32,618 nucleotides of DNA from Aeromonadales bacterium (lineage in GTDB: Bacteria; Pseudomonadota; Gammaproteobacteria; Enterobacterales; GCA-002770795). Each line of letters starts with the position of its first letter. Within the stretch, counting starts at the first letter, position 1. The stretch lies in contig DRNA01000206.1 of assembly GCA_011322365.1 (NCBI GenBank), positions 1 through 32,618 of the forward strand, in the 5' to 3' direction. The translations under genes were made by a program, and so were the position numbers. The notes beneath the pieces are model-generated. The model did not search any database. It worked only from the letters and a program-made list of their open reading frames with translations, and had not been told where the DNA came from. Shown here one piece after another: positions 3,702-17,592 of the stretch.

Positions 3702-4712
3702 CTATCCACAAAATGGATAAGTGCGAACTTCCTTTTCAAGCAAAACCCCAAATGTCGACTGAACAGTCTGCTGGATCTCTTTTGCCAATGCCAGTAATTG
3801 TTCTGATTTTCCACCTCCAAAATGAACCAATACCAAAGCCTGATGCTGATGCACTCCCACAGCACCTTTGCGTAGCCCCTTAAAATTGACTTTTTCAATT
3901 AGCCAACCCGCTGCCAGTTTCCATTGTTTTTGTTGCGGGTAGGCAATCACATCAGGAAAAGCCTGCTTAATAACACGGTAATGCTCATCAGAAATTATCG
4001 GATTTTTGAAAAAACTTCCGGCGTTACCTAATACCCCGGGATCGGGTAATTTACTTTGTCGAATTTCGGCAACTTTAGCGGCTATAAATGCTGGCGTTAG
4101 ATTGTCGCTATGTTGAAAACTCTGGAGCGGCCCATAATCGAGTTGTGGATTTGGCGTTCGGGTCAGGCGAAGCCCGACACGTGTAATAACAGCAGCATCT
4201 TTAAGTTCTGTTTTAAAAATACTCTGTCGATAGGAAAACTGACACTCACCAGGTGTAAGACGAATAAATTCTCCTGTCTTTAAATGATAAAATTCCACCC
4301 AGTCAATAACATTGCTCAATTCCACACCATAGGCACCAATATTCTGCACAGGCGCAGCGCCTACCGAACCAGGGATTAAAGCAAGATTCTCTATGCCCCA
4401 CAATCCCTGAGAGACGGTCCACTGCACAAATTCATGCCAGTTTTCACCTGCCGCCACTTCGAGCAGACACCGTCTATCATTTTCATTCACCAGCTTTTTG
4501 CCCTTGATATTAATATGGGCAACAGCACAATCAAGTTTTTCCGGTAAGAGAAAATTACTGCCTCCACCGAGAATAAGACAGGGGGCATTACGCAATTCCT
4601 GCCGCAACAGCGGTAAATCTTCATCGCTATCAATGCTATAAAGCACTTTAGCATCACAGGGGAAGGCAAAAGTATTGAAATGAGTTAGATCGGCGTTAGA
4701 CTCAGTTTTCAA
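3702..4712 (-). CDS. murB: UDP-N-acetylenolpyruvoylglucosamine reductase
   Basis: LILGGGSNFLL, GAAPVQNIGAYGVEL, FSYRQSIFK, LGNAGSFFKNP, AAGWLIEKVNFKG. Confidence 0.95.
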   Translation of the reverse strand: MKTESNADLTHFNTFAFPCDAKVLYSIDSDEDLPLLRQELRNAPCLILGGGSNFLLPEKLDCAVAHINIKGKKLVNENDRRCLLEVAAGENWHEFVQWTVSQGLWGIENLALIPGSVGAAPVQNIGAYGVELSNVIDWVEFYHLKTGEFIRLTPGECQFSYRQSIFKTELKDAAVITRVGLRLTRTPNPQLDYGPLQSFQHSDNLTPAFIAAKVAEIRQSKLPDPGVLGNAGSFFKNPIISDEHYRVIKQAFPDVIAYPQQKQWKLAAGWLIEKVNFKGLRKGAVGVHQHQALVLVHFGGGKSEQLLALAKEIQQTVQSTFGVLLEKEVRTYPFCG

Positions 4713-4859
4713 AATAGTTCCAGTTCAAAAACAATGGTTAAAGATAGATGACAGCTTAAAGAATATTTAAACTGAACTCAACTCTCTGTGTCTACTCTCC
4801 AGGGGATCGTCCGAGGTTAAATATTCCAGGTGATTAATTGCTCAGATTCCATAGTATGA

Positions 4860-5579
4860 CTACACCAGATCCACATTATGATAAATATTCTGTACGTCAT
4901 CCAGATCATTGAGCATGTCGATAAACTTTTCGAACATTTCCTTATCCTCTTCATCGATCTGAGTGGTTACCTGAGGGATAAACTGGATTTCATCTACCTC
5001 AAATTCAATATCAGTAAAAGTATCCATCAGGGCTTTTTTAGCTTTAAAGTATTCATTATGGGGGGCAAAAACAGTAATATTGCCTTCTTCATTTTCAATG
5101 TCTGTGACATCAACATCGGCTGACATCAATGCATCCAGTGCCGCTTCCTCATCGTCCCCCTTAAAAACCAGGATGGCGCTGTGATCAAACATGTGGCTAA
5201 CACTTCCCTGAGTGCCAATCTTGCTATGCGTCTTGGTGAAACAAACTCTCACATCACCAAAAGTACGGTTTGGGTTATCTGTCAGACAATCGACGATCAC
5301 CATACAATTCCCAGGGCCATAACCCTCATAACGAGCCACCGCAAAATCTTCTCCACCACCACCTTTGGCTTTATCGAGCGCTTTTTCGATAACATGGCTG
5401 GGCACCTGATCTTTTTTAGCCCGCTCGATCAAGCCCCGTAATGCCAGATTGCCTTCCAGTTCAACACCACCGGATTTTGCACAAACATAGATTTCACGGC
5501 TATATTTGCTATAAATCTTGGCATTGGCATCCGATGTTTTTGCCATGGATTCTTTTCGATTTTGGTATGCTCTACCCAT
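4860..5579 (-). CDS. YebC/PmpR/TACO1-family protein (YeeN-like)
   Basis: [38 protein letters not shown]...[28 protein letters not shown]...[23 protein letters not shown]; start placed at MGRAYQ rather than the longer ORF start. Confidence 0.88.
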
Positions 5580-5739
5580 TTCACTACCTTTTAGAAATTT
5601 TTGATTATAGTGCACAAGCAATTAATAGAGGTGCCACTAGTAAATATGCATTTAGTTTACTATTTAGTGCCTTTAAATGTATAGCCGGAATACAGTAAGT
5701 TGAATACAAAGTTGTTATTATTAAAAAAGCAGAGTCGCT

Positions 5740-6171
5740 TTAATGCGATTGAGGCGGTATTTTAGCGCCACTCTGATTGATCATATAGAGCATAGCTGAG
5801 ATTACTTCAGCATCACTACAATTACGACACCCTCCCCTGGGAGGCATTAAATTATTATTGTAGCCCTCAATTGCGTGGCGATACAATACATCCATGCCTT
5901 TGCTGATTCTAGAACTCCAGTCAAACTTATCATCTGGCATTGGTGCTCCCTGGGTGTTTTTAGCATGACAACCTTTGCAACGATAATTATAAATTACTTT
6001 ACCTGTTCTCCGGGGGCCTTTGTATACTTTCTTTTCATTTATTTCCTGCATAAACCCAGTAGTAGTGGGGAGAGTAGTTTTTTTTAATTGTGTGTCAGAT
6101 GCCATTGATAATATCGGTAAAAAAAACAGATATATTAAATAAAAGAGCAAGGTTGCATTTTTTTTATCCAT
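5740..6171 (-). CDS. c5-like monoheme cytochrome c, secreted
   Basis: Signal-like N-terminus, heme motif CKGCH, axial-Met region LMPPRGGCRNCSDAEVISAMLYM as in cytochrome c5/c555. AGGAGA precedes MDKKN, favouring start at 6171 over the ORF start. Confidence 0.85.
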   Translation of the reverse strand: MDKKNATLLFYLIYLFFLPILSMASDTQLKKTTLPTTTGFMQEINEKKVYKGPRRTGKVIYNYRCKGCHAKNTQGAPMPDDKFDWSSRISKGMDVLYRHAIEGYNNNLMPPRGGCRNCSDAEVISAMLYMINQSGAKIPPQSH

Positions 6172-6203
6172 CAAAATCTCCTGTTTGTTCACTTCGTCTA
6201 AAA

Positions 6204-6668
6204 CTAACACCAGGGTATTTTAGCATCAATAGAACTACTTCGCGCAAATCCAGATTTTTTGAGTAAATCACTCAACATACCCTTATCAGTATAAATTGAG
6301 GCCACACCGTCAATCATATCAGTCCTTTCCATAAAAATATTTTTAACTTTTATCCATTTAGACTTTTCGAAATACTCTTTAGAAAATTTTATGCCTTCTT
6401 GTGCTAATTTCATTTTACAAGTTGAAGATTTTTTATCAACCACTGGCACAGAAATTCCAGAGAGAGTAATCCACATGTTTTTAGGGAATCCGGACCAAAC
6501 ATCTATCATCAGGTTAATACGATTAGCTTTTTCGACTTGAATATACTTTGCTGCATAACTACCTTGGTAAGCGTTAAACATATGTTTTTTATCATATTTA
6601 TTCGTCGCCGACAATGTTGATGGAATTGTTGCCATCAAAAAAACCAATACAATTATTTTAAATTTCAT
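6204..6668 (-). CDS. Exported SNase-fold-like protein, apparently lacking catalytic residues
   Basis: Signal-like N-terminus; WITLSGISVP resembles the SNase VRLIGIDAPE strand; IDGVASIYTDKGMLSDLLKKSGFAR resembles DRYGRxLAxVYVDGxDLNxxLVxxGLA; terminal IPWC. Confidence 0.5.
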   Translation of the reverse strand: MKFKIIVLVFLMATIPSTLSATNKYDKKHMFNAYQGSYAAKYIQVEKANRINLMIDVWSGFPKNMWITLSGISVPVVDKKSSTCKMKLAQEGIKFSKEYFEKSKWIKVKNIFMERTDMIDGVASIYTDKGMLSDLLKKSGFARSSSIDAKIPWC

Positions 6669-7357
6669 TTTATCAACTCTTTAGTAAAATTTAACTTCTT
6701 ATCAAAAATTTCATCTATTAAGAAGCTCATAACCTCTAACATTTCTTCCTGGTTTTTATTGTAAAATGGAGCGGTAATATATTCATTATTAATAACAATA
6801 GAAGGCACGCCACGCAAGCCATATCTAACAGTAAGAATTCTTGCATGACTCACTTTCTCCATAATGTCACTGGAATTATAAAGGGCAATAAATTTTTCTT
6901 TATCCACTCCTTGACTCTCAAAAAACTGACTTAATGAATATTCATTCAAATAGACTTTTTTATTCTGATGTATTGCACTAAATAATAATTTGTGTGTTTT
7001 TTTAATGATTCCCAGGTGTTCTGCTATATAATATGCTTTTGCTAGAGGAACCCAGTCTGGGGTCACTACAGCAGGTATCCTTTTCAATATGACTTTATCA
7101 CTATTTTCACCTATCCATCTTTCCAGCTTGGGTTCCAGCCGGTAACAGGATGGACAGGAATATAAAAAAAACTCTAGTACAGTAATCCTATCAGACTGCA
7201 ATCCCGGTTGCTTCTTTTTATCTCCCTTTAGCTTTGTATAGTTTGAATTTTCGTGAAATATTCTTTTAGTATAGTCAGTTTTATCTGAATCTCGTACGGT
7301 TTCATTACCTGCGACATTTAATATCATAATTGAAATTGATAATAACAATATTTTCAT
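6665..7357 (-). CDS. DsbA-like thiol:disulfide interchange protein
   Basis: VLEFFLYSCPSCYRLEPKLERW (CPSC active site), GLRGVPSIVINNEY cis-Pro loop, signal peptide; 4-bp overlap with next ORF. Confidence 0.85.
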   Translation of the reverse strand: MKILLLSISIMILNVAGNETVRDSDKTDYTKRIFHENSNYTKLKGDKKKQPGLQSDRITVLEFFLYSCPSCYRLEPKLERWIGENSDKVILKRIPAVVTPDWVPLAKAYYIAEHLGIIKKTHKLLFSAIHQNKKVYLNEYSLSQFFESQGVDKEKFIALYNSSDIMEKVSHARILTVRYGLRGVPSIVINNEYITAPFYNKNQEEMLEVMSFLIDEIFDKKLNFTKELIK

Positions 7358-7430
7358 AAGTAAGTTTCTATTTTTCGTTTTTTCTGTTTAACAATCATTA
7401 TCCATTCACTTTATTATTTACCGTATAAAA

Positions 7431-10400
7431 TTAACTGGTTATTTTTTCTCTAAAACAAATCCAGAAATAGTAAATAACCGGGATAACTACCATTGATACT
7501 AATGGTGCGGTAATCATTCCACCTAACATTGGAGCGGCAATACGATGCATAATTTCTGAACCGGTACCATTTGCCAACATAACTGGAATAAAACCAGCGG
7601 AAATAACCAAAGCCGTCATCGCTTTTGGCCTTACCCTTTTTAAGGCGCCTTCGATCACCGCTTGTTTCAATTGTTCTCTGTTAACTGGTTGTTTCCTGTT
7701 TATCGCTTCTTTTAAATACACTATCATAACAACCCCAAATTCTGCAGCAACACCCGCCAGTGCAATAAACCCTACTGCAACAGCAATCGACATATTATAT
7801 CCCAGTATGTAGATAAGCCAAAAACCACCAACAAGAGCCAGTGGCACTGAAAGAATTACCATAAATGATTCTGCTAAATTATCAAAGCACATGTATAATA
7901 AAATAAGGATGATAATTAAAGCAAAAGGTATAATTTTAGTAACACGTTCTTCTGCGCGTTTCATATACTTATATTGTCCAACCCATTCGACACTATAGCC
8001 AGCCGGAATGTTAACCTTATCCTTAATTTCCTGTTGAGCACGTTTTATATAATCGCCTAAATCGGCATCTTTCTGAGTAACATAAATCCACGAGTTTAGT
8101 TTTCCATTCTCACTTTTAATAACTGGTGGACCTTCAGATATTTTTATTTCTGCCAGATCCTGTAATTGGACATGTGTATCTTCAGTAGCAATTATCTGTA
8201 GAGATTTAAGTTTGGATATAGAATCTCTCATACCTTGAGGATAACGCAAATTTATAGCATAACGTTCTCTCCCTTCAACATTCATGATAATATTTTTGCC
8301 ACCTATGGCAATACTTGCCACCTCTAAAATTTCAGCAACACTCAATCCAAAATGCGCTGCTGCATAGCGATCAATATCTATGTCAATATAACGTGCTCCG
8401 GTCGTTCTTTCAGAGTAGACACTAGCGGTATTTTTTAATGATTTTAAGATCGGCTCAATACGTTTACCAATTTCCTGAATCTTCTTCAAATTTGGACCCG
8501 AAATTTTTAATCCTATAGGCGTATTAATCCCAGTGGATAGCATATCTATTCTGGCTCTAATAGGCATCAACCAGGCATTACTTAGACTAGGAATTTGTAC
8601 TTTTTGATCTAATTCTTGTTTTAACTTTTTTAAAGTCATACCTTCCCGCCATAATTCTTTTGGCTTTAGTAAAATAGTTGTTTCAATCATCGTCAATGGT
8701 GCAGGATCGGTTGCAGTTTCCGCTCTTCCAACTTTACCAAAAACTCGTTTCACTTCCGGTATTGTTTTAATCATCTGATCGGTTTGTTGTAATAGTTGCT
8801 TAGCTTTTCCAATGGAAATAGACGGTAGAGTTGTTGGCATATACAATAAATCACCTTCATCCATCTCTGGCATAAATTCACTGCCAATATGCCTAACTGG
8901 ATATATAACAGAAATAAAGATAAAACATAACGTAAGAGTAAGTAACATTGGATTTTTTAAAGCCCAATCAAGGAATGGTTTATAGATGTCCATAATTTTT
9001 TTACTGATGAAATTATCAGATTCCTTTCTAATTTGACCCTTTACCATCATGACAATCAGAGCAGGTACAAGTGTAATTGATAATGCAGCTGCAATTGCCA
9101 TGGCATAAGTTTTTGTGATGGCTAAGGGAAAAAAGAGGCGGGCTTCCTGTGCCTGTAAAGCAAAAACAGGCAGAAAACTGATGGTAATGATTAAAAGTGA
9201 AAAAAATAGTGGTGAACCTACTTCAAGAACAGCCTGTGAGATTGTTTCAATTCTTTGTGCCGTACTGAATTTATCGGTTTTCATACTTGTTGCTAACCGT
9301 TCAAAATGTTTATGTACATTTTCAATCATGACAATACTGGCATCTACCATTGCTCCAATTGCAATTGCAATACCACCCAACGACATGATGTTGGCATTTA
9401 CTCCTTGATTTTTCATAATAATAAAGGCTATTAAAATGCCAATTGGTAAACTAAGAACAATAACTAGAGAAGAGCGAATATGAAGTAAAAATACTGCGCA
9501 GACCAATACAACTATTATCAGCTCTTCGATTAATTGATGAGTTAAGTTTGTAATTCCCCTTTTAATTAAAGCCGAACGGTCATAAGTTTCAATAAGTTCA
9601 ACCCCATCTGGCAAAGATGTTTTTATATATTCTATTTTTTTCTTAATCCTGTTGATAGTATGCAAAGCGTTTTCACCGCTTCGCATAATTACAATACCAC
9701 CAACAACTTCACCTTCACCATCAAGTTCTGCTATATTTCTTCTTGCAGCAGGACCTATACTAATATCTGATGAAATATCTTCTAATAAAACAGAATTTAT
9801 AGATGTCCGCCTTCTAATAGTTGGGATTGAAATCAAGCCGATATCCTTAATTGACTTTAGATAACCATTCATTCTCACCATATATTCGGCTTCTGAAATT
9901 TCCAGTACAGAACCACCTAACTGTTTCACTGAATCAGAAATTGCCTGTTTTACATTGCCAATTGTCAGGTAATAACCCCTTAATTTATTAGGATCAATTT
10001 CTACCTGATATTGTTTAACCATGCCCCCCACGGTCGCAACTTCCGCAACACCAGGAACAGACTGAAGATCATATTTTATTGACCAATCCTGTAGGCTCTT
10101 AAGTTCTGATAAATCATGTTTTCCAGTTCTATCCAATAAAGCATATTGATAAATCCAGTCAACACCGGTAGCATCTGGTCCTAATTGTGGCTTTACTCCT
10201 GATGGCAAATCATCACTCAATTCACTTAAGTATTCAAGTACACGACTTCTTGCCCAATATAGATCCGTTTTGTCCGAAAAAATAATGTAAACAAATGAAT
10301 CACCGAAAAAAGAGTAACCTCTAACCGTTGTTGCCCCAGGCACAGCTAACAGAGCCGTTGATAATGGGTAAGTAATCTGATCTTCAACAACATCCGGTGG

Positions 10401-10568
10401 CTGACCAGGATAACTGGTTCTGATAATTACCTGAACATCTGATAAATCTGGTAAAGCATCAAGTGGTATCTGTTTGATAGAATAAATACCCCAGATGCTA
10501 AACAAAATTGATATTAAAAGAATTAATATCCGATTTTTTATAGACCATCTTATAATAAATTGTACCAT
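7431..10568 (-). CDS. CusA-like heavy-metal efflux RND transporter (HME-RND, predicted Cu(I)/Ag(I))
   Basis: 1045 aa; [100 protein letters not shown]. Confidence 0.94.
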   Translation of the reverse strand: [1045 protein letters not shown]

Positions 10569-10572
10569 TTAT

Positions 10573-11871
10573 TTAATGATCCATCTTGCTATCTATATTA
10601 TTTTTCAGCTCATTATTTTTTATTTCATTTCTTTCCATACGTGCTAAGGCACTTAATATATTACTCTCGGAATCTATAAGAAACTGACCAGAAGTTACAA
10701 TTCTATCACCTTCCTGAAGACCTGACAAAATCTCCATCTGCCCATCCGATTCTTCACCTGCTATAATCTCAACAGGTTGAAGATTAAAATCTGATAATAC
10801 TTTCACTATATGAGCTGAATCAGCAGTTTTTATAACAGCATCTCTTGGTACCAATAACACATTATGTTTTGTTCTTCCCTCAATAAAAACTCTTGCAAAT
10901 GTACTTTGGGTCAAATCTTCCCTGTCAGACTTAAATTTTATTCTGACTTCTAATGCTCTGGTAGTATAACCCACCGGGTCATCCACTCGCTCAACTATTC
11001 CATTAAATAATACACCAGGTAAATTTCTTAATCTAATTCGTACCTTTTGCCCCTCTTTGACTAAATTCCACTGTCGCTCAAAAATTTCTGCCGTTATCTC
11101 AACTACCTGATAATTCCCACCCAGATTAAAAACAGTAAAAGAATTATTAATTTTGTCACTAATTTTTCCTCTCTTTGCATAGATATAACCATCCTCTTTA
11201 GAATATATCCTTACTGGAATATTGGGAGAGGCACCTTGTTGTAGTCTAGATATATCCCCGGCATCAAGTCCTGAGTGTATAAGTTTTGTCATCAGATGGC
11301 TGGCGTTAGATTTATCTTTTCGAGAAAAAAATGTCACGAAGTCTGATTCATTCTTAAATAACTCTTCTGATGCTACAGAAAAAAGAAACTCCTCTTTTTT
11401 GATTATATCCCCACTATATTTCTTATTCATATCTACAATTCTACCTGAAATAGGAGAGGTTATTCTTCTTCTGGACATAGGATCAATTCGAGTTATTTTT
11501 CCAATCGTTTCAATGGTATGTTTAAGATCCCCTCTTTTTACTCTCTGGGTTTTAATTGCTAAACGCTCTTGCATTCCAGGCACTAAATTTACAACAGCAT
11601 AGTCTGGAGACTTTGTATTTTGTTTCTTTTCTTCACTGTTTTCCTTCATTAATACCAAATCCATTCCACAAATTGGACAACGGCCCTCTTTGTCAGATAA
11701 AACATGGGAATGCATTGGGCAAACATAGATTTCTTTCTTAATCTGTTCTTGGTCACGCTGCTTATTTACTGCAGAATTTCCCGCCAGATTCTCAGAGGAA
11801 TTCACCACATTAATTAACACAGTTATACACAATAAAAATGCATAAAACACTATTAACATCTTATTATTCAT
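10573..11871 (-). CDS. CusB-like RND periplasmic adaptor with N-terminal heavy-metal-binding domain
   Basis: YVCPMHSHVLSDKEGRCPICGMDLVLM followed by MFP barrel-sandwich sequence (RRRITSPISGRIVDMNKKYSGDIIKK...); 4-nt gap to the CusA-like gene. Confidence 0.9.
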   Translation of the reverse strand: MNNKMLIVFYAFLLCITVLINVVNSSENLAGNSAVNKQRDQEQIKKEIYVCPMHSHVLSDKEGRCPICGMDLVLMKENSEEKKQNTKSPDYAVVNLVPGMQERLAIKTQRVKRGDLKHTIETIGKITRIDPMSRRRITSPISGRIVDMNKKYSGDIIKKEEFLFSVASEELFKNESDFVTFFSRKDKSNASHLMTKLIHSGLDAGDISRLQQGASPNIPVRIYSKEDGYIYAKRGKISDKINNSFTVFNLGGNYQVVEITAEIFERQWNLVKEGQKVRIRLRNLPGVLFNGIVERVDDPVGYTTRALEVRIKFKSDREDLTQSTFARVFIEGRTKHNVLLVPRDAVIKTADSAHIVKVLSDFNLQPVEIIAGEESDGQMEILSGLQEGDRIVTSGQFLIDSESNILSALARMERNEIKNNELKNNIDSKMDH

Positions 11872-11889
11872 AAATAATTTCTATATTGA

Positions 11890-12849
11890 TTAATTATTTT
11901 TTTCATTTAAGCTCTCAAATTTTATAGCAAAAATTTTATCCCAATTTTTGCCGGTAACATACAACACCCCTGTTTTTTTATCATAGGCTATACCATTTGC
12001 CACACTTGACCAATACTTCCTATTAGTTACAGGATAAAGCCGGCTCAAATCAAGCCATGCCAATACAACAAAATTAGTTTTATCAATAATGGCAATACAG
12101 TCTGTTGGCCAAATATTTGCAAAAATATATTCACCCACCATCTCCATTTCATTTATTCCTTTCAATATCACATTATTTGCTAAAACTTTGTGCTTTTTTA
12201 TTGGCACTTTATTACCTAATCGAAATCGAGACATATCCGTAGTACTATTACTAATTACAATAGTATCATCATCTCTCAGGACGCCCCAACCATCGCCTGT
12301 AAAAGTATATTTCTCCCTCAACCTCATGCTCTTCTTATCAATAACAAGTAACTCTTCTTTTTTTAAAGTTGTCATTAATATAGTATCATCCAATTCTGTA
12401 ATTCCCTCTACAAAAATATTATCCGGCAATTTTAACACATCATATTTAAAGGGAGCATTATCAGTTTTCTGGAGTTGATATTTGATTAACCTTGACTGAC
12501 CCAATCCTCCTGATGACTCAAAAATAAAAGGTTCTGAAAAAAGCAGTCCCTGTGTACTGATTTTGTTTCCATGTTTATAGGTATCCAGAATCTGATATCT
12601 TATATTTTCAAGATTATCATCACTTGAGTTAATGACATCCAAACTGTGACTATAAAAAAGCCTACCAAAATATTTCAAATAATAATTATTTTGTTTATCT
12701 ATAATATATTGGATGGAACAGGTCTGATGTGAAATTTCTATTCTTTTGTCATTGGCACTAAGATAAGAAATTTTACACCAAAAAAAAACAAATAGATTCA
12801 GTAAGATAACTGGTTTTATATCTAACATTAAAACGCCAACTGTAACCAT
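11890..12849 (-). CDS. Glutamine cyclotransferase (plant/bacterial-type glutaminyl-peptide cyclotransferase)
   Basis: STQGLLFSEPFIFESSGGLGQSRLIKYQL, EGITELDDTILMTTLKKEELLVIDKKSM, GWGVLRDDDTIVISNSTTDM, INEMEMVGEYIFANIWPTDCIAIID, VANGIAYDKKTGVLYVTGKNWDKIFAI: blade motifs of the Glu_cyclase_2 beta-propeller family. Confidence 0.88.
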   Translation of the reverse strand: MVTVGVLMLDIKPVILLNLFVFFWCKISYLSANDKRIEISHQTCSIQYIIDKQNNYYLKYFGRLFYSHSLDVINSSDDNLENIRYQILDTYKHGNKISTQGLLFSEPFIFESSGGLGQSRLIKYQLQKTDNAPFKYDVLKLPDNIFVEGITELDDTILMTTLKKEELLVIDKKSMRLREKYTFTGDGWGVLRDDDTIVISNSTTDMSRFRLGNKVPIKKHKVLANNVILKGINEMEMVGEYIFANIWPTDCIAIIDKTNFVVLAWLDLSRLYPVTNRKYWSSVANGIAYDKKTGVLYVTGKNWDKIFAIKFESLNEKNN

Positions 12850-12878: not shown

Positions 12879-12909
12879 AAAGCCTGTTTATTTCATATAA
12901 ACAGGCTTT
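12879..12909. terminator. Strong hairpin, probable intrinsic terminator (or processing/attenuation element)
   Basis: AAAGCCTGTTTA-TTTCATA-TAAACAGGCTTT: perfect 12-bp stem, 7-nt loop, beginning about 5 nt downstream of the lipoprotein stop codon (minus strand). Confidence 0.65.
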
Positions 12910-12914
12910 TGTTT

Positions 12915-15086
12915 CTAGTGCAATGAATAGATAGCTACGTCATGATGTAATGGATCAAACTGATAAATTTTTAACCGTCTGCTTGGCTCAAAATTAAATT
13001 CAATTTCCACTTTATGCATTCCAGGCAATCCAGTGACATCATCAACAGCTGGAACCATTATCGGGCCCCAGGGACCTCCAGCATTTGGCCATGCATGATG
13101 ACGACCAAATGTAAAAAAACAGCCTGATCCAAATTGTTGGGCTGCATTATCATTAATGGTTCCATCTTCGGTCAAAGCCCGTGGTGAAGGTTCTAGAAAT
13201 TCTTCAGTTCCCCCTGTGTTCATAGGAAAAACTCTATCATTTGAAATGACCTCAGTAACATTCTGTTCAACAATATCACCTTTAATCACGCTCACTCCCT
13301 GACCATCATTCAAAGTTTGAGGAACCTCTCTTAAAGCCTGCTTTGATGTATTTGTCGTATTATCCAGTAACACATGATCCACCAATTGTGTCCGATTTCC
13401 CAAAATTACTGTTTGTTCGGTATGTATTGAATCAGCCATAGCTGTGGTTGGATCAGTATCCTGAAATTGATTTTCCCACCCTCTGGAACCACCAAAGTCT
13501 ACATTCATATAACCATGAGGAAAATGATCACCATTATACAGGGTAACCTTATAATTATAGGGTCTGATGTTCCAGTCATGAGCGCACCCGTTACAAATGC
13601 CTTTAATAGCCGCAGGACCCTGACCGCTATCATCACCTGACAGACCTGTACCGGTAATGCCCTGTCGACTGGCATAAATTGTATTATTGACAAACAATAA
13701 AGTAATAGTGGCATCAGGATCTGCTGTAACTCCTGCTGGAAGTTTAGTTCTGTCCTGCCAATCAAGGAATGCACTCTTCAGCTCATCTGCAAATCCGATC
13801 CTGACTGTAGGTGGTGTAGCATTTGAACCTGATGCAGGAGTGACATACTCACGTAACAAATTCCACATTCTTTTCGCCGGGGAAAGATCACCTATCTTGG
13901 CAATCGCTGCCAATTTCTGAGATTCTCCTCCCATGGGATTTAGCCCGAAAACATCCACTTCATGGGCCACAAGGGTTTTACCACCAGCTGTTTTAAGAGC
14001 ATTTTCCATGACCTGTACTCTTGGGGGGTGGATTCGCCAACCCCAGGTGTAGACCAGATTAAAGTATTTTCCCTGAGTTTCTTTTATTTTTATCTTGTAC
14101 CTCTTGCCTTCCTCCAGCATTGGGAAATATGATTGATCCATAGATGCATGAAATGGTCCTCGACCTCCATCAGGTGCTACATCAAAATTCATAACCATTG
14201 GAGAAAAATCTTCAATACCTCCATGTAAAATGTTGACATGGTAAGTTACAGTCCAGGGAACATCCTGTACCTGTGAAGGGTCTAGAAGTGACACATTTGA
14301 TTCAATATGTTGATCCCAGTAGAGCATTTCCACATCCACATTGCCACCTACTTTTGTGCCACTTTCATCGTAAACCGGCTCAACCACTGCAATTTTATTG
14401 GGGCCGTTGTAATGTAACATGGGGAAACCACTGTAGGCCTTTCCTGGAATATGATTACCCTCCAGAATATCAAGGCCTCGTTGAACTGCCACTTCATCCA
14501 CTTCACCCAGTATTTCTGCTTTTTGTATAGCATCCAATACTTCTCTAAGGGCATCCGTTGGAGATTCTTTATCAATAGAGGTTTTTGTCACCGGGCCATC
14601 ATGAAGCATATATTGGCTGGAGCCCAGTGCTGAAGGCTGTGTGTTCTGCATTTCGTTGCCCAGGAAATCAAACAGATTACTATTGACAGTATTGAGAAAA
14701 TTACTGCCTGGTGGTTTGTCAAATGGACTTTGAGCTGGAAATTGTCCCTCAGGAGTTATCACGGTTGTGGTATCACCAGAGGTTGTTTGCATGGAACCAA
14801 AAAAGCTTCCATTACCGGGATGAGGTTGGGGGCATGGATGTCCTGTCCAGCCACTAAAAGAACCAGTATTAGAACCATCGGGAGGGAACCAGTTTCCAGA
14901 CGTTAACTGACAATTACCAACACCTTCAGGTGAGCCCGGTTCCCACGGTTGTTCTGGAACAAAGGCATCTCTCCCATCCTGTCCATCTTTACCATCTTTA
15001 CCGTCTTTTCCATCTTTACCATCCTGACAGGCGACGAGTAACAAAAAACTCAAACTCAAATAAATAATATTATTCCGTTTTTTCAT
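12915..15086 (-). CDS. Large lipoprotein with short collagen-like (GXY)6 tract; function unknown
   Basis: MKKRNNIIYLSLSFLLLVAC lipoprotein signal with C, then QDGKDGKDGKDGKDGQDGRDA; about 700 aa of sequence with no family I recognise. GGGAGAT precedes ATG at 15086, favouring that start over 15116. Confidence 0.85.
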   Translation of the reverse strand: MKKRNNIIYLSLSFLLLVACQDGKDGKDGKDGKDGQDGRDAFVPEQPWEPGSPEGVGNCQLTSGNWFPPDGSNTGSFSGWTGHPCPQPHPGNGSFFGSMQTTSGDTTTVITPEGQFPAQSPFDKPPGSNFLNTVNSNLFDFLGNEMQNTQPSALGSSQYMLHDGPVTKTSIDKESPTDALREVLDAIQKAEILGEVDEVAVQRGLDILEGNHIPGKAYSGFPMLHYNGPNKIAVVEPVYDESGTKVGGNVDVEMLYWDQHIESNVSLLDPSQVQDVPWTVTYHVNILHGGIEDFSPMVMNFDVAPDGGRGPFHASMDQSYFPMLEEGKRYKIKIKETQGKYFNLVYTWGWRIHPPRVQVMENALKTAGGKTLVAHEVDVFGLNPMGGESQKLAAIAKIGDLSPAKRMWNLLREYVTPASGSNATPPTVRIGFADELKSAFLDWQDRTKLPAGVTADPDATITLLFVNNTIYASRQGITGTGLSGDDSGQGPAAIKGICNGCAHDWNIRPYNYKVTLYNGDHFPHGYMNVDFGGSRGWENQFQDTDPTTAMADSIHTEQTVILGNRTQLVDHVLLDNTTNTSKQALREVPQTLNDGQGVSVIKGDIVEQNVTEVISNDRVFPMNTGGTEEFLEPSPRALTEDGTINDNAAQQFGSGCFFTFGRHHAWPNAGGPWGPIMVPAVDDVTGLPGMHKVEIEFNFEPSRRLKIYQFDPLHHDVAIYSLH
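14967..15020 (-). repeat. Six 9-bp tandem repeats encoding Gly-X-Asp triplets
   Basis: Minus strand GGTAAAGAT GGAAAAGAC GGTAAAGAT GGTAAAGAT GGACAGGAT GGGAGAGAT = (GKD)4-GQD-GRD. Confidence 0.95.
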
Positions 15087-15096
15087 TTTTATCTCC

Positions 15097-15720
15097 CTAC
15101 ACACTGTGCATATCAACGAGAAAGGGTTTAAACTCCTTTCCTGTACTTAACCGTGCAACTGCTTCAGCAATATACAAGGCATGCTGTCGACTGGCTTTAC
15201 TCATCCATCGTCCTGTTTTTTCATTTCCGACCCAGGCGAGGCCATTAATTCGTCCACGTATTCCCCACCCCATCAGGATTTCACGAATATCATCGGGATT
15301 TCCCGTTAAAAATTGCCATCGAGCACCATGTGAATCTGCCAATTCTTTTAAATTGTCTGGTGTATCATGATAAGGGTCTGTAGAAATGGTATACATGAAA
15401 ACATCCTTACCCAGTCTATCTCCTATCATTTTCTGTACTTTTACCATATTACTGATTATTGGAAAATGTTTCTCACCCCGCACCGATGTGAAATTGACCA
15501 AAACCAGTTTATTATGGATAAGCTCTTCGTAGAACCAGGATTTTTTCTTGTGTTGATCGATGACAACTGCTTGAGGAAATCGATGGGAAATTGGACCGGT
15601 AATTCCTCTGGGACAGTTTTTGAAACCAGCCTTTAATGGTTCTGATTTGCTATTACCCGCCACCGCTACGGCCGGCAAAGCCGAAGCTAGTGTCGTAAGA
15701 AATGCTCTTCTATTTTTCAT
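15097..15720 (-). CDS. SCO1/SenC-like thioredoxin-fold protein lacking the CxxxC motif; Tat-type signal
   Basis: NRRAFLTTLASALPAVAVAG signal; LVLVNFTSVRGEKHFPIISNMVKVQKMIGDRLGKDVFMYTISTDPYHDTPDNLKELADSHGARWQFLTGNPDDI matches the SCO fold, with G and F at the expected Cys positions. Confidence 0.82.
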   Translation of the reverse strand: MKNRRAFLTTLASALPAVAVAGNSKSEPLKAGFKNCPRGITGPISHRFPQAVVIDQHKKKSWFYEELIHNKLVLVNFTSVRGEKHFPIISNMVKVQKMIGDRLGKDVFMYTISTDPYHDTPDNLKELADSHGARWQFLTGNPDDIREILMGWGIRGRINGLAWVGNEKTGRWMSKASRQHALYIAEAVARLSTGKEFKPFLVDMHSV

Positions 15721-15762: not shown

Positions 15763-17523
15763 TTAGCCTGGGGTAATATCCCATCGCAACATCATTGCGT
15801 TGTCTTCATGCACGTTATTATGACAATGAATAACATAGCGACCTACAAAATCATCAAATCGATAAAATACTTTTACAACATCATTTGGACCCAGAGTCAT
15901 GACATCTTTTCGAGACTTCAAAACGCCTGTCGGCGCTTTGCCATTCCATTCCAAAATCTGACATTCCTCAAAATGAACATGACATGGATGTGCCCATGAA
16001 CTTCCAGCATTTCTGAAAGTCCAGACTTCTGCTGTTCCCTGCCGGGGTGATGCTGAAATGATGGCAGGATCCATAAATTGTCCATTAATAGTCCAAAGTC
16101 CCATATCATGATCAAAAACCCATTCACGATGGACCAGGGTATCGAGTACATCCTGTGGAGGAATATCGGGCAAGGGACGCAAAGTGTTGGGAACCTGACT
16201 GACATCGACTTCACCACTATCCATCTCTACGACCCTGAATTGCAAAACTTCCATACGGTCATTGCCGCTGAGACGACGGCCTGTGGGACCTTGTCCACTG
16301 TCCTGTTCCATCAGATTAAGTAATTCCAGCGTATCACCCGCTACAAACTGAGAAAAATCAATAATCACGTCATGGCGATTTGCTGGTCCCAAAATAATAC
16401 TGGTAGCTCCCCTGAAAGGTTCTTCCAGCAGATTGCCATCATTGGTAATAACATCAAATGGAATAGCCGTATCCCTGCTCGAAGTACGGTAAAGACCTAG
16501 CTCATAAAATCGAGATGGGCCTCCATCATAAATACGAAACCTATATTTTCTACGTTTCACATTTAAAAAAGGTTGTACTTTCCGGTTAACCGTTATCAAG
16601 TCACCTAAATGACCATCGGTATCAAAAACATTATAAGTTGGATTGCCCTCGGAATTAAATCTAACATCATGCAATATCAAAGAAATATCAAAACCTAAAG
16701 AATTACCATTTCCATCATCACCAAATTGCATATTGCCCGGTAATTTTAATGCTTGAGGGTTCGGATCTGTTTCATCTCCCGAATCAATATCATCATAAAA
16801 TATAGCCATCCCCGATAATCCGGCATAAACATTAGTAGCTGTAAAATCAATCATATGATCGTGATACCAGAGGCTAGCTAATGCTTCGCGGTAATCATTC
16901 CGGGCATAATACATCGCATAATGATGTTCCCAGAATTCACCAGGCATGGCAAAATCCATAGGATATCCATCACTTTCAGATGCAGTATGAGCATTATGAA
17001 GGTGGGTACTAATAGCGGGATAGCCAATAGGCATCTCAACATTATCCGATGTTGGCAGGTCATTGTAGCGTCGAACAAAAACCGGCTCACCATATCGAGC
17101 AACTAACGTAGGACCAGGTGTTGAAACATTACCAGTGGAAGCGTCACTGTACATCCAGGCAAGTGACCCCGAGCCGGCTGTCTTTCCCGCCTGGGCTGGG
17201 GTTAAAGCACTCAGATCTGAATGATAATTCCACACTCCTTCTGTTATATGCTGTTCATAGACTTTCACCGCCTCAAACTCGTCATAGCGTTGATGTCTAT
17301 TAGGATCAATAGGTGGACTGAGTGCTGCTGCACCTATATTATTGAGTTTCGGTGGTATAAATAGCGGTTCGGTATAGGCGCTAACAGGCGGGCTATCCGG
17401 CTCTGAACCAGGACTTCTTATACCTGTTGGCCTACATAACTGGGCACTTGCAGAACCTGCGCCAAAAATAGCAGGCACCCCCAACAACATACCCCCTTTT
17501 AGGATATTACGTCTTTTGATCAT
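15763..17523 (-). CDS. Multicopper oxidase (CotA/bilirubin-oxidase-like), Tat-exported
   Basis: KRRNILKGGMLLGVPAIFGAGSASA Tat signal; copper motifs STHLHNAH, LWYHDH, HPCHVH, HCHNNVHEDNAMM. AGGAGGAGGGG lies 5' of ATG at 17523. Confidence 0.94.
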   Translation of the reverse strand: MIKRRNILKGGMLLGVPAIFGAGSASAQLCRPTGIRSPGSEPDSPPVSAYTEPLFIPPKLNNIGAAALSPPIDPNRHQRYDEFEAVKVYEQHITEGVWNYHSDLSALTPAQAGKTAGSGSLAWMYSDASTGNVSTPGPTLVARYGEPVFVRRYNDLPTSDNVEMPIGYPAISTHLHNAHTASESDGYPMDFAMPGEFWEHHYAMYYARNDYREALASLWYHDHMIDFTATNVYAGLSGMAIFYDDIDSGDETDPNPQALKLPGNMQFGDDGNGNSLGFDISLILHDVRFNSEGNPTYNVFDTDGHLGDLITVNRKVQPFLNVKRRKYRFRIYDGGPSRFYELGLYRTSSRDTAIPFDVITNDGNLLEEPFRGATSIILGPANRHDVIIDFSQFVAGDTLELLNLMEQDSGQGPTGRRLSGNDRMEVLQFRVVEMDSGEVDVSQVPNTLRPLPDIPPQDVLDTLVHREWVFDHDMGLWTINGQFMDPAIISASPRQGTAEVWTFRNAGSSWAHPCHVHFEECQILEWNGKAPTGVLKSRKDVMTLGPNDVVKVFYRFDDFVGRYVIHCHNNVHEDNAMMLRWDITPG

Positions 17524-17563
17524 GAACCCCTCCTCCTGAAAATTCCTCTTCATAATCGAGGAC

Positions 17564-17592
17564 ACTATAGACGAAACCATTTTATTATGCAA
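17564..17592 (-). promoter_or_regulatory. Putative sigma70 promoter of the multicopper oxidase transcription unit
   Basis: Minus strand TTGCAT (17587-17592), 17-bp spacer, TATAGT (17564-17569), about 40 nt upstream of the RBS-supported ATG at 17523. Confidence 0.6.

Follow-up and report, generated by a model that had tools for sequence, protein, structure and literature searches.

Multicopper oxidases and their accessory proteins

Several bacterial manganese oxidases are multicopper oxidases (MCOs) that rely on poorly understood partners. In the MnxEFG complex of Bacillus, the Mn-oxidising MCO is accompanied by MnxE and MnxF, accessory proteins that bind copper and have no known similarity to characterised proteins (PMC5622069). 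In Pseudomonas putida GB-1, the genes listed for the mnxG operon are those for MnxG, a YVTN beta-propeller protein, two SCO proteins, a binding-protein/cytochrome c and SurA (PMC11409713, Table 4). A manganese-oxidase activity was also reported for CotA (PMC3618234). Furthermore, the MCO CutO is reported to need a partner gene, cutF, for its maturation (PMC8456105). With a partner family recognisable by its sequence, the metal-oxidising enzymes among the many CotA-like MCOs could be picked out.

The window, i.e., the whole stretch of 32,618 nucleotides analysed here, carries such a CotA-like MCO, followed by a gene for an SCO-like protein and by a gene for a predicted lipoprotein, hereafter X. 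By description, X is comparable to MnxE and MnxF; the partner of these is the much larger MnxG, whereas the neighbour of X in the window is a CotA-like MCO. It seems fairly probable that X is exported and serves as an accessory subunit to this CotA/bilirubin-oxidase-like MCO and that the unit makes an extracytoplasmic metal-oxidising complex. This reading is drawn from the conserved MCO-SCO-X order, the co-occurrence of X and MCO, the correlation of their identities and the four invariant histidines and five invariant aspartates of X. The manganese-oxidase activity reported for CotA and the MnxEFG precedent were also counted in its favour. No paper pairing an MCO, an SCO protein and a collagen-like lipoprotein was found in the literature.

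The MCO-SCO-X unit

The three genes lie on one strand, with gaps of 42 bp between MCO and SCO and of 10 bp between SCO and X, and form a compact unit for testing:

15763..17592, minus strand: MCO, bilirubin-oxidase/CotA-like, with the Pfam domains Cu-oxidase_2 and Cu-oxidase_3
15097..15720, minus strand: SCO1/SenC-like protein of 207 aa
12915..15086, minus strand: gene X, a 723-aa predicted lipoprotein of an undescribed family (from the ORF, its translation and relatives)
12879..12909, minus strand: hairpin with a 13-bp stem, just 3' of the stop codon of X and resembling a terminator on either strand

In the ORF call, X starts with the ATG at 15086, its stop codon ends at 12915 and its product has 723 aa. 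The hairpin that follows probably ends the MCO-SCO-X unit.

The domains of the window MCO and its intact copper motifs (HLHN, HDH, HPCHVH and HCHNNVHEDNAMM) are those of a bilirubin oxidase/CotA-like enzyme, and in the family alignment the HxH motifs and HCHNxVHEDxAMM are conserved. Its best PDB matches are bilirubin oxidase (8rtq, E=4.6e-56) and CotA (1gsk, E=2.8e-36); the NCBIfam CueO model also scores, below its cut-off. Whereas this MCO, two genes upstream of X, belongs to the bilirubin oxidase/CotA group by sequence, X itself has no detectable sequence relation to MCOs. The MCO carries a twin-arginine-like signal.

The second protein has a SCO1-SenC domain (Pfam, E=2.4e-9). A CxxxC copper-binding motif was not found, by scan and alignment, in the window SCO or in its orthologues located between MCO and X, so that copper loading by this SCO should not be assumed. 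CxxxC is present in the second SCO of two more distant clusters, L014 and L038, and in the SCO of the acidobacterial locus L040. The window SCO starts with a twin-arginine-like motif, NRRAFLT, which is unusual for an SCO protein.

Gene order and co-occurrence

The order MCO-SCO-X was found in nine clusters (the window, L004, L005, L006, L013, L014, L037, L038 and L039). L042, at a contig end, holds MCO, SCO and the start of a partial X gene. As L013 comes from a one-contig genome, the linkage is not a binning artefact. Some X genes have other surroundings. The acidobacterial copy L007 has no MCO or SCO beside it over the extent of its contig (3.7 kb on the upstream side, 0.9 kb on the downstream side), and its genome (G429) also contains the L042 cluster. 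In L041, an X-like gene has no MCO within about 7 kb. L007, L042 and L043 all belong to G429, a genome in which short contigs apparently carry X in more than one copy.

In a sample of 399 genomes of the phylum, X (found by profile search) and window-type MCOs (E<=1e-80) mark an identical set of three genomes, which belong to three different families, and both are absent from the other 396. Two independent genes would share the same three genomes with a chance of roughly 1 in 10 million. Furthermore, the pairwise identities of X and MCO are correlated (r=0.94; 0 of 10,000 permutations as high), which suggests that the unit is inherited together. The predicted partnership of X with the MCO, proposed by the first-pass annotation and staked there on linkage to MCO or SCO genes in relatives, is well supported by the nine linked clusters and by the exact co-occurrence in the sampled phylum.

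X is rare and scattered, being found in 5 of 369 genomes in the sample of one class and in 1 of 39 in the family of its nearest relative. No relative of X was found in plasmids, phages or viral contigs.

Wider neighbourhood and the metal concerned

Three further genes lie beyond X in the window:

11890..12849, minus strand: glutamine-cyclotransferase-like gene, beside X (Pfam Glu_cyclase_2, 5.2e-54)
10573-11871, minus strand: CusB-like protein with an HMBD domain, heavy-metal RND pump
7431-10568, minus strand: CusA-like protein, heavy-metal RND pump

The glutamine-cyclotransferase-like gene also follows X in L005, L037 and L039, and each of the seven window-type clusters from gammaproteobacteria has CusB/CusA-type pump genes after X. 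A larger conserved island after X (5740-11871 in the window) recurs with unchanged gene order in the relatives L004, L013 and L039; it comprises CusB, CusA, a DsbA-like protein, a 154-aa unknown protein (6204-6668) and a small cytochrome c (5740-6210).

The more distant clusters L014 and L038 retain MCO-SCO-X and lack CusAB; after X they have their second, CxxxC-bearing SCO and then a protein of the cytochrome c type, which in L014 also has a recognised periplasmic-binding-protein domain. Comparison of annotations, not of sequences, indicates that these two clusters share with the P. putida GB-1 mnxG operon an MCO, SCO genes and a cytochrome c/periplasmic-binding-protein gene. However, that operon has a giant MnxG-type MCO followed by a beta-propeller gene, and no X is listed in it. 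In L040, a distant X homologue of 868 aa (4435-7041) lies directly downstream of a 1777-aa MCO (7153-12486) whose best PDB match is the manganese oxidase MnxG (9bxa, E=3.9e-92). The genome region of L040 also encodes a sulfatase-modifying-factor-like protein, an SCO and a cytochrome c, the last two behind the X-like gene. In G675, an MnxG-like MCO and an X-like protein are on different contigs, and G437 (L056) has an MnxG-like cluster without X. Any resemblance to known manganese-oxidation operons is confined to relatives (L014/L038, by annotation, and L040); the window cluster has CusAB instead.

The link with metal oxidation comes from the mnxG-operon-like genes of L014 and L038 and from the X-like gene beside the MnxG-like MCO of L040, and metal oxidation by the MCO-X unit is moderately supported by these comparisons. 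Manganese as the substrate is a tentative lead taken from the gene context in relatives, and its probability is put somewhat under one half.

The same neighbourhood could be read as periplasmic copper tolerance, where the MCO would be a CueO-like cuprous oxidase, X would sequester or deliver copper and the CusAB-type pump would export it, manganese not being involved. The presence of CusB (with HMBD) and CusA after X in every window-type gammaproteobacterial cluster and the score of the MCO with the CueO model point that way. As such pumps fit copper as well as manganese, a role in copper tolerance stays in contention. It is nevertheless unlikely, given that the MCO is nearer to bilirubin oxidase and CotA than to CueO, that L014 and L038 keep the unit without CusAB and with mnxG-operon-like SCO and cytochrome c genes instead, and that an X-like protein is paired with an MnxG-like MCO in L040.

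The body of X

The alignment of X contains 12 members, the window protein and 11 relatives, and family members range from 540 to 870 aa. Three conserved regions stand out:

14025..14045, minus strand: WGWRxHP motif with H353, residues 348-354, invariant in the 12-member alignment
13482..13541, minus strand: conserved segment LYNGDHFPHGYMNVDFGGSR, residues 516-535, with invariant N518, D520, H524 and D530
12918..12965, minus strand: C-terminal YQFDPLHHDVAIYSLH, residues 708-723, with invariant D711, H715 and H723

Four histidines (H353, H524, H715 and H723) and five aspartates (D293, D317, D520, D530 and D711) are invariant in 12/12 members, as are W348, G349, W350, R351 and P354, and the second proline of the family motif in the WGWRxHP region is nearly invariant. 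Invariance of H225 and H714 is limited to the ten closer members. The first-pass annotation had suggested that His clusters and a CNGCAHDW segment could bind metal. The clusters are present, and they are conserved in part: next to the four invariant histidines, neither CNGCAHDW nor GRHHAWPN is kept in the family, the CNGC cysteines being limited to 4/12 members and the GRHH histidines varying. A candidate metal site can be placed among H353, H524, H715 and H723.

Searched alone and as a family profile, the body of X gave no significant match in Pfam, NCBIfam or PDB sequences, in agreement with the earlier description of a lipoprotein whose body could not be assigned. By these searches, it is an undescribed protein family. 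A DUF5121 match, which scored 16.4 bits for P0001 where the cut-off is 23 and reached an E of 0.0018 at best across the members, was taken as chance.

AlphaFold gave no reliable model for full-length X (five sequences, pLDDT 36); the N-terminal half (residues 135-478, mean pLDDT 61.7) has a strand-rich core. Foldseek searches with the two low-confidence models returned no significant match (E 0.17 or worse). Among the 50 first-ranked matches of both models, roughly half or more were cupredoxins (CotA, azurin, laccases and nitrite reductases), with CotA and azurin as the best, a signal that is weak and correlated. These non-significant cupredoxin matches, together with a strand-rich segment of plausible size at about residues 230-340, would suit an X that arose from an MCO by loss of the copper centres and is now a degenerate protein of several cupredoxin domains. 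Such an origin looks improbable: no Pfam cupredoxin match was obtained, and hhalign of the X profile against the MCO family gave a probability of 0.2%, not above column-shuffled controls in any domain pairing, this null being rough as some shuffles scored absurdly high, probably because of gap clustering. X as an MCO in its own right, with no Pfam Cu-oxidase domains and the same hhalign value, is not supported at the sequence level.

Proposed function

As an accessory subunit, X would bind the MCO and supply or gate the metal. The MCO-SCO-X unit would form an extracytoplasmic complex oxidising most likely Mn(II), alternatively Cu(I). A metal site in X could be built from some of the four invariant histidines and five invariant aspartates. 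In the source organism, the lipid anchor and the (GKD)4GQDGRD tether would hold the complex at the outer membrane. Counted against this reading are the solitary X in L007, the MCO-less L041, the X-less MnxG-like cluster of G437, the CusAB-type pumps of the seven gammaproteobacterial clusters and the low confidence of the structure models. Gene structure, lipobox, tract, gene order, co-occurrence and invariant residues are direct observations, from which the complex, its metal binding, its substrate and its place at the membrane are inferred.

Alternatively, X could be a helper for the maturation or export of the MCO, with its twin-arginine-like signal, and not a part of the working enzyme. Linkage and co-inheritance would suit a chaperone equally well, and the CutO/cutF pair offers a precedent. 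However, a family of such length with invariant His and Asp is large for a chaperone, and its homologues adjoin two quite different types of MCOs, which makes a helper role quite unlikely.

A bolder extension of the accessory-subunit reading would make X a new class of large metal-binding partners, with a new fold, associated with both CotA-like and MnxG-like MCOs and marking an undescribed manganese-oxidation complex of gammaproteobacteria and acidobacteria. This is a speculative, rather doubtful proposal.

The lipobox and the GXY tract

Two features mark the start of X:

15027..15086, minus strand: signal peptide and lipobox, MKKRNNIIYLSLSFLLLVA followed by the cysteine (from inspection of the sequence)
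14967..15020, minus strand: (GKD)4-GQD-GRD tract of six GXY triplets (from the sequence)

The signal peptide ends in a lipobox with its cysteine (MKKRNNIIYLSLSFLLLVAC), as in bacterial lipoproteins. The lipobox LVAC covers residues 17-20 (window 15038-15027), with the cut between LVA and C, after which comes QD(GKD)4GQDGRD. Translation of gene X thus confirms the lipobox cysteine and the GXY tract after Cys-Gln-Asp that had been noticed from the letters. Gln at position +2 of a lipoprotein fits outer-membrane sorting under the general Lol rule. In the source organism, X is most likely lipid-anchored and is predicted at the outer membrane.

The tract GKDGKDGKDGKDGQDGRD (residues 23-40, window 15020-14967) has all six triplets in register. 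Its codons are GGT AAA GAT / GGA AAA GAC / GGT AAA GAT / GGT AAA GAT / GGA CAG GAT / GGG AGA GAT. As the 9-mer GGTAAAGAT is identical in 3 of the first 4 repeat units, repeat slippage is possible in the tract.

A degenerate pattern that asks for a small residue, a Cys and four Gly codons in register has one match in the 3.65-Mb genome that carries the window, the X tract itself, and its reversed control has zero matches there, indicating that the tract is more than chance. Across the 369 genomes sampled from the class, a pattern with six Gly gave 8 sites versus 6 control matches, so that most other matches are noise and genuine cases are few.

Among the 12 aligned members, only the window X combines a lipobox that closes its signal peptide with a GXY run behind it; both are absent from the 11 relatives. 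The nearest relative, the X of L004 (69% identity), and most others start with ordinary-looking signal peptides. Two further matches of the search expression, VGAC in L004 (far beyond the signal peptide) and FVAC in L041, have no GXY run behind them.

Collagen models do not recognise the tract: Pfam Collagen has no match to X at E<=1, and the NCBIfam model SclB scores 15.4 bits for a cut-off of 325. The tract contains no proline, and its Lys stands at X and its Asp at Y, which leaves it without Lys-Gly-Asp pairs. In collagen peptides, charged residues other than Arg at Y are as a rule unfavourable unless they come in the Lys-Gly-Glu or Lys-Gly-Asp order, i.e., Lys at Y and then an acidic X, which is stabilising (PMC7824840). 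Without proline and with an unfavourable charge order, the tract is read as flexible and a triple helix as unlikely. It is probably a short flexible charged lipid tether, not a real collagen, and a flexible, possibly length-variable spacer is a reasonable description. Like the bacterial collagen-like proteins Scl, Bucl and Lcl, X is an exported protein with in-register Gly-X-Y repeats; unlike them, it has only six proline-free triplets with an unfavourable charge order, in one family member and with no collagen-model match.

That the tract is a minimal collagen trimerising X at the membrane, the stalk imagined by the first-pass annotation, is very improbable: six in-register triplets do stand right after the lipidated Cys and lipid anchoring could raise the local concentration, but the tract is missing from the 11 aligned relatives, does not match Pfam Collagen and lacks both proline and the stabilising Lys-Gly-Asp/Glu order (PMC7824840). 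An eye-catching GXY repeat can be, as here, a private tether on a protein whose interest lies elsewhere.

A lipoprotein head, CGDGDDGAPGAPGADGADG, with a likely lipobox and GXY tract, was also seen at about 1530-1600 of L066 in a different gammaproteobacterium (G1068).
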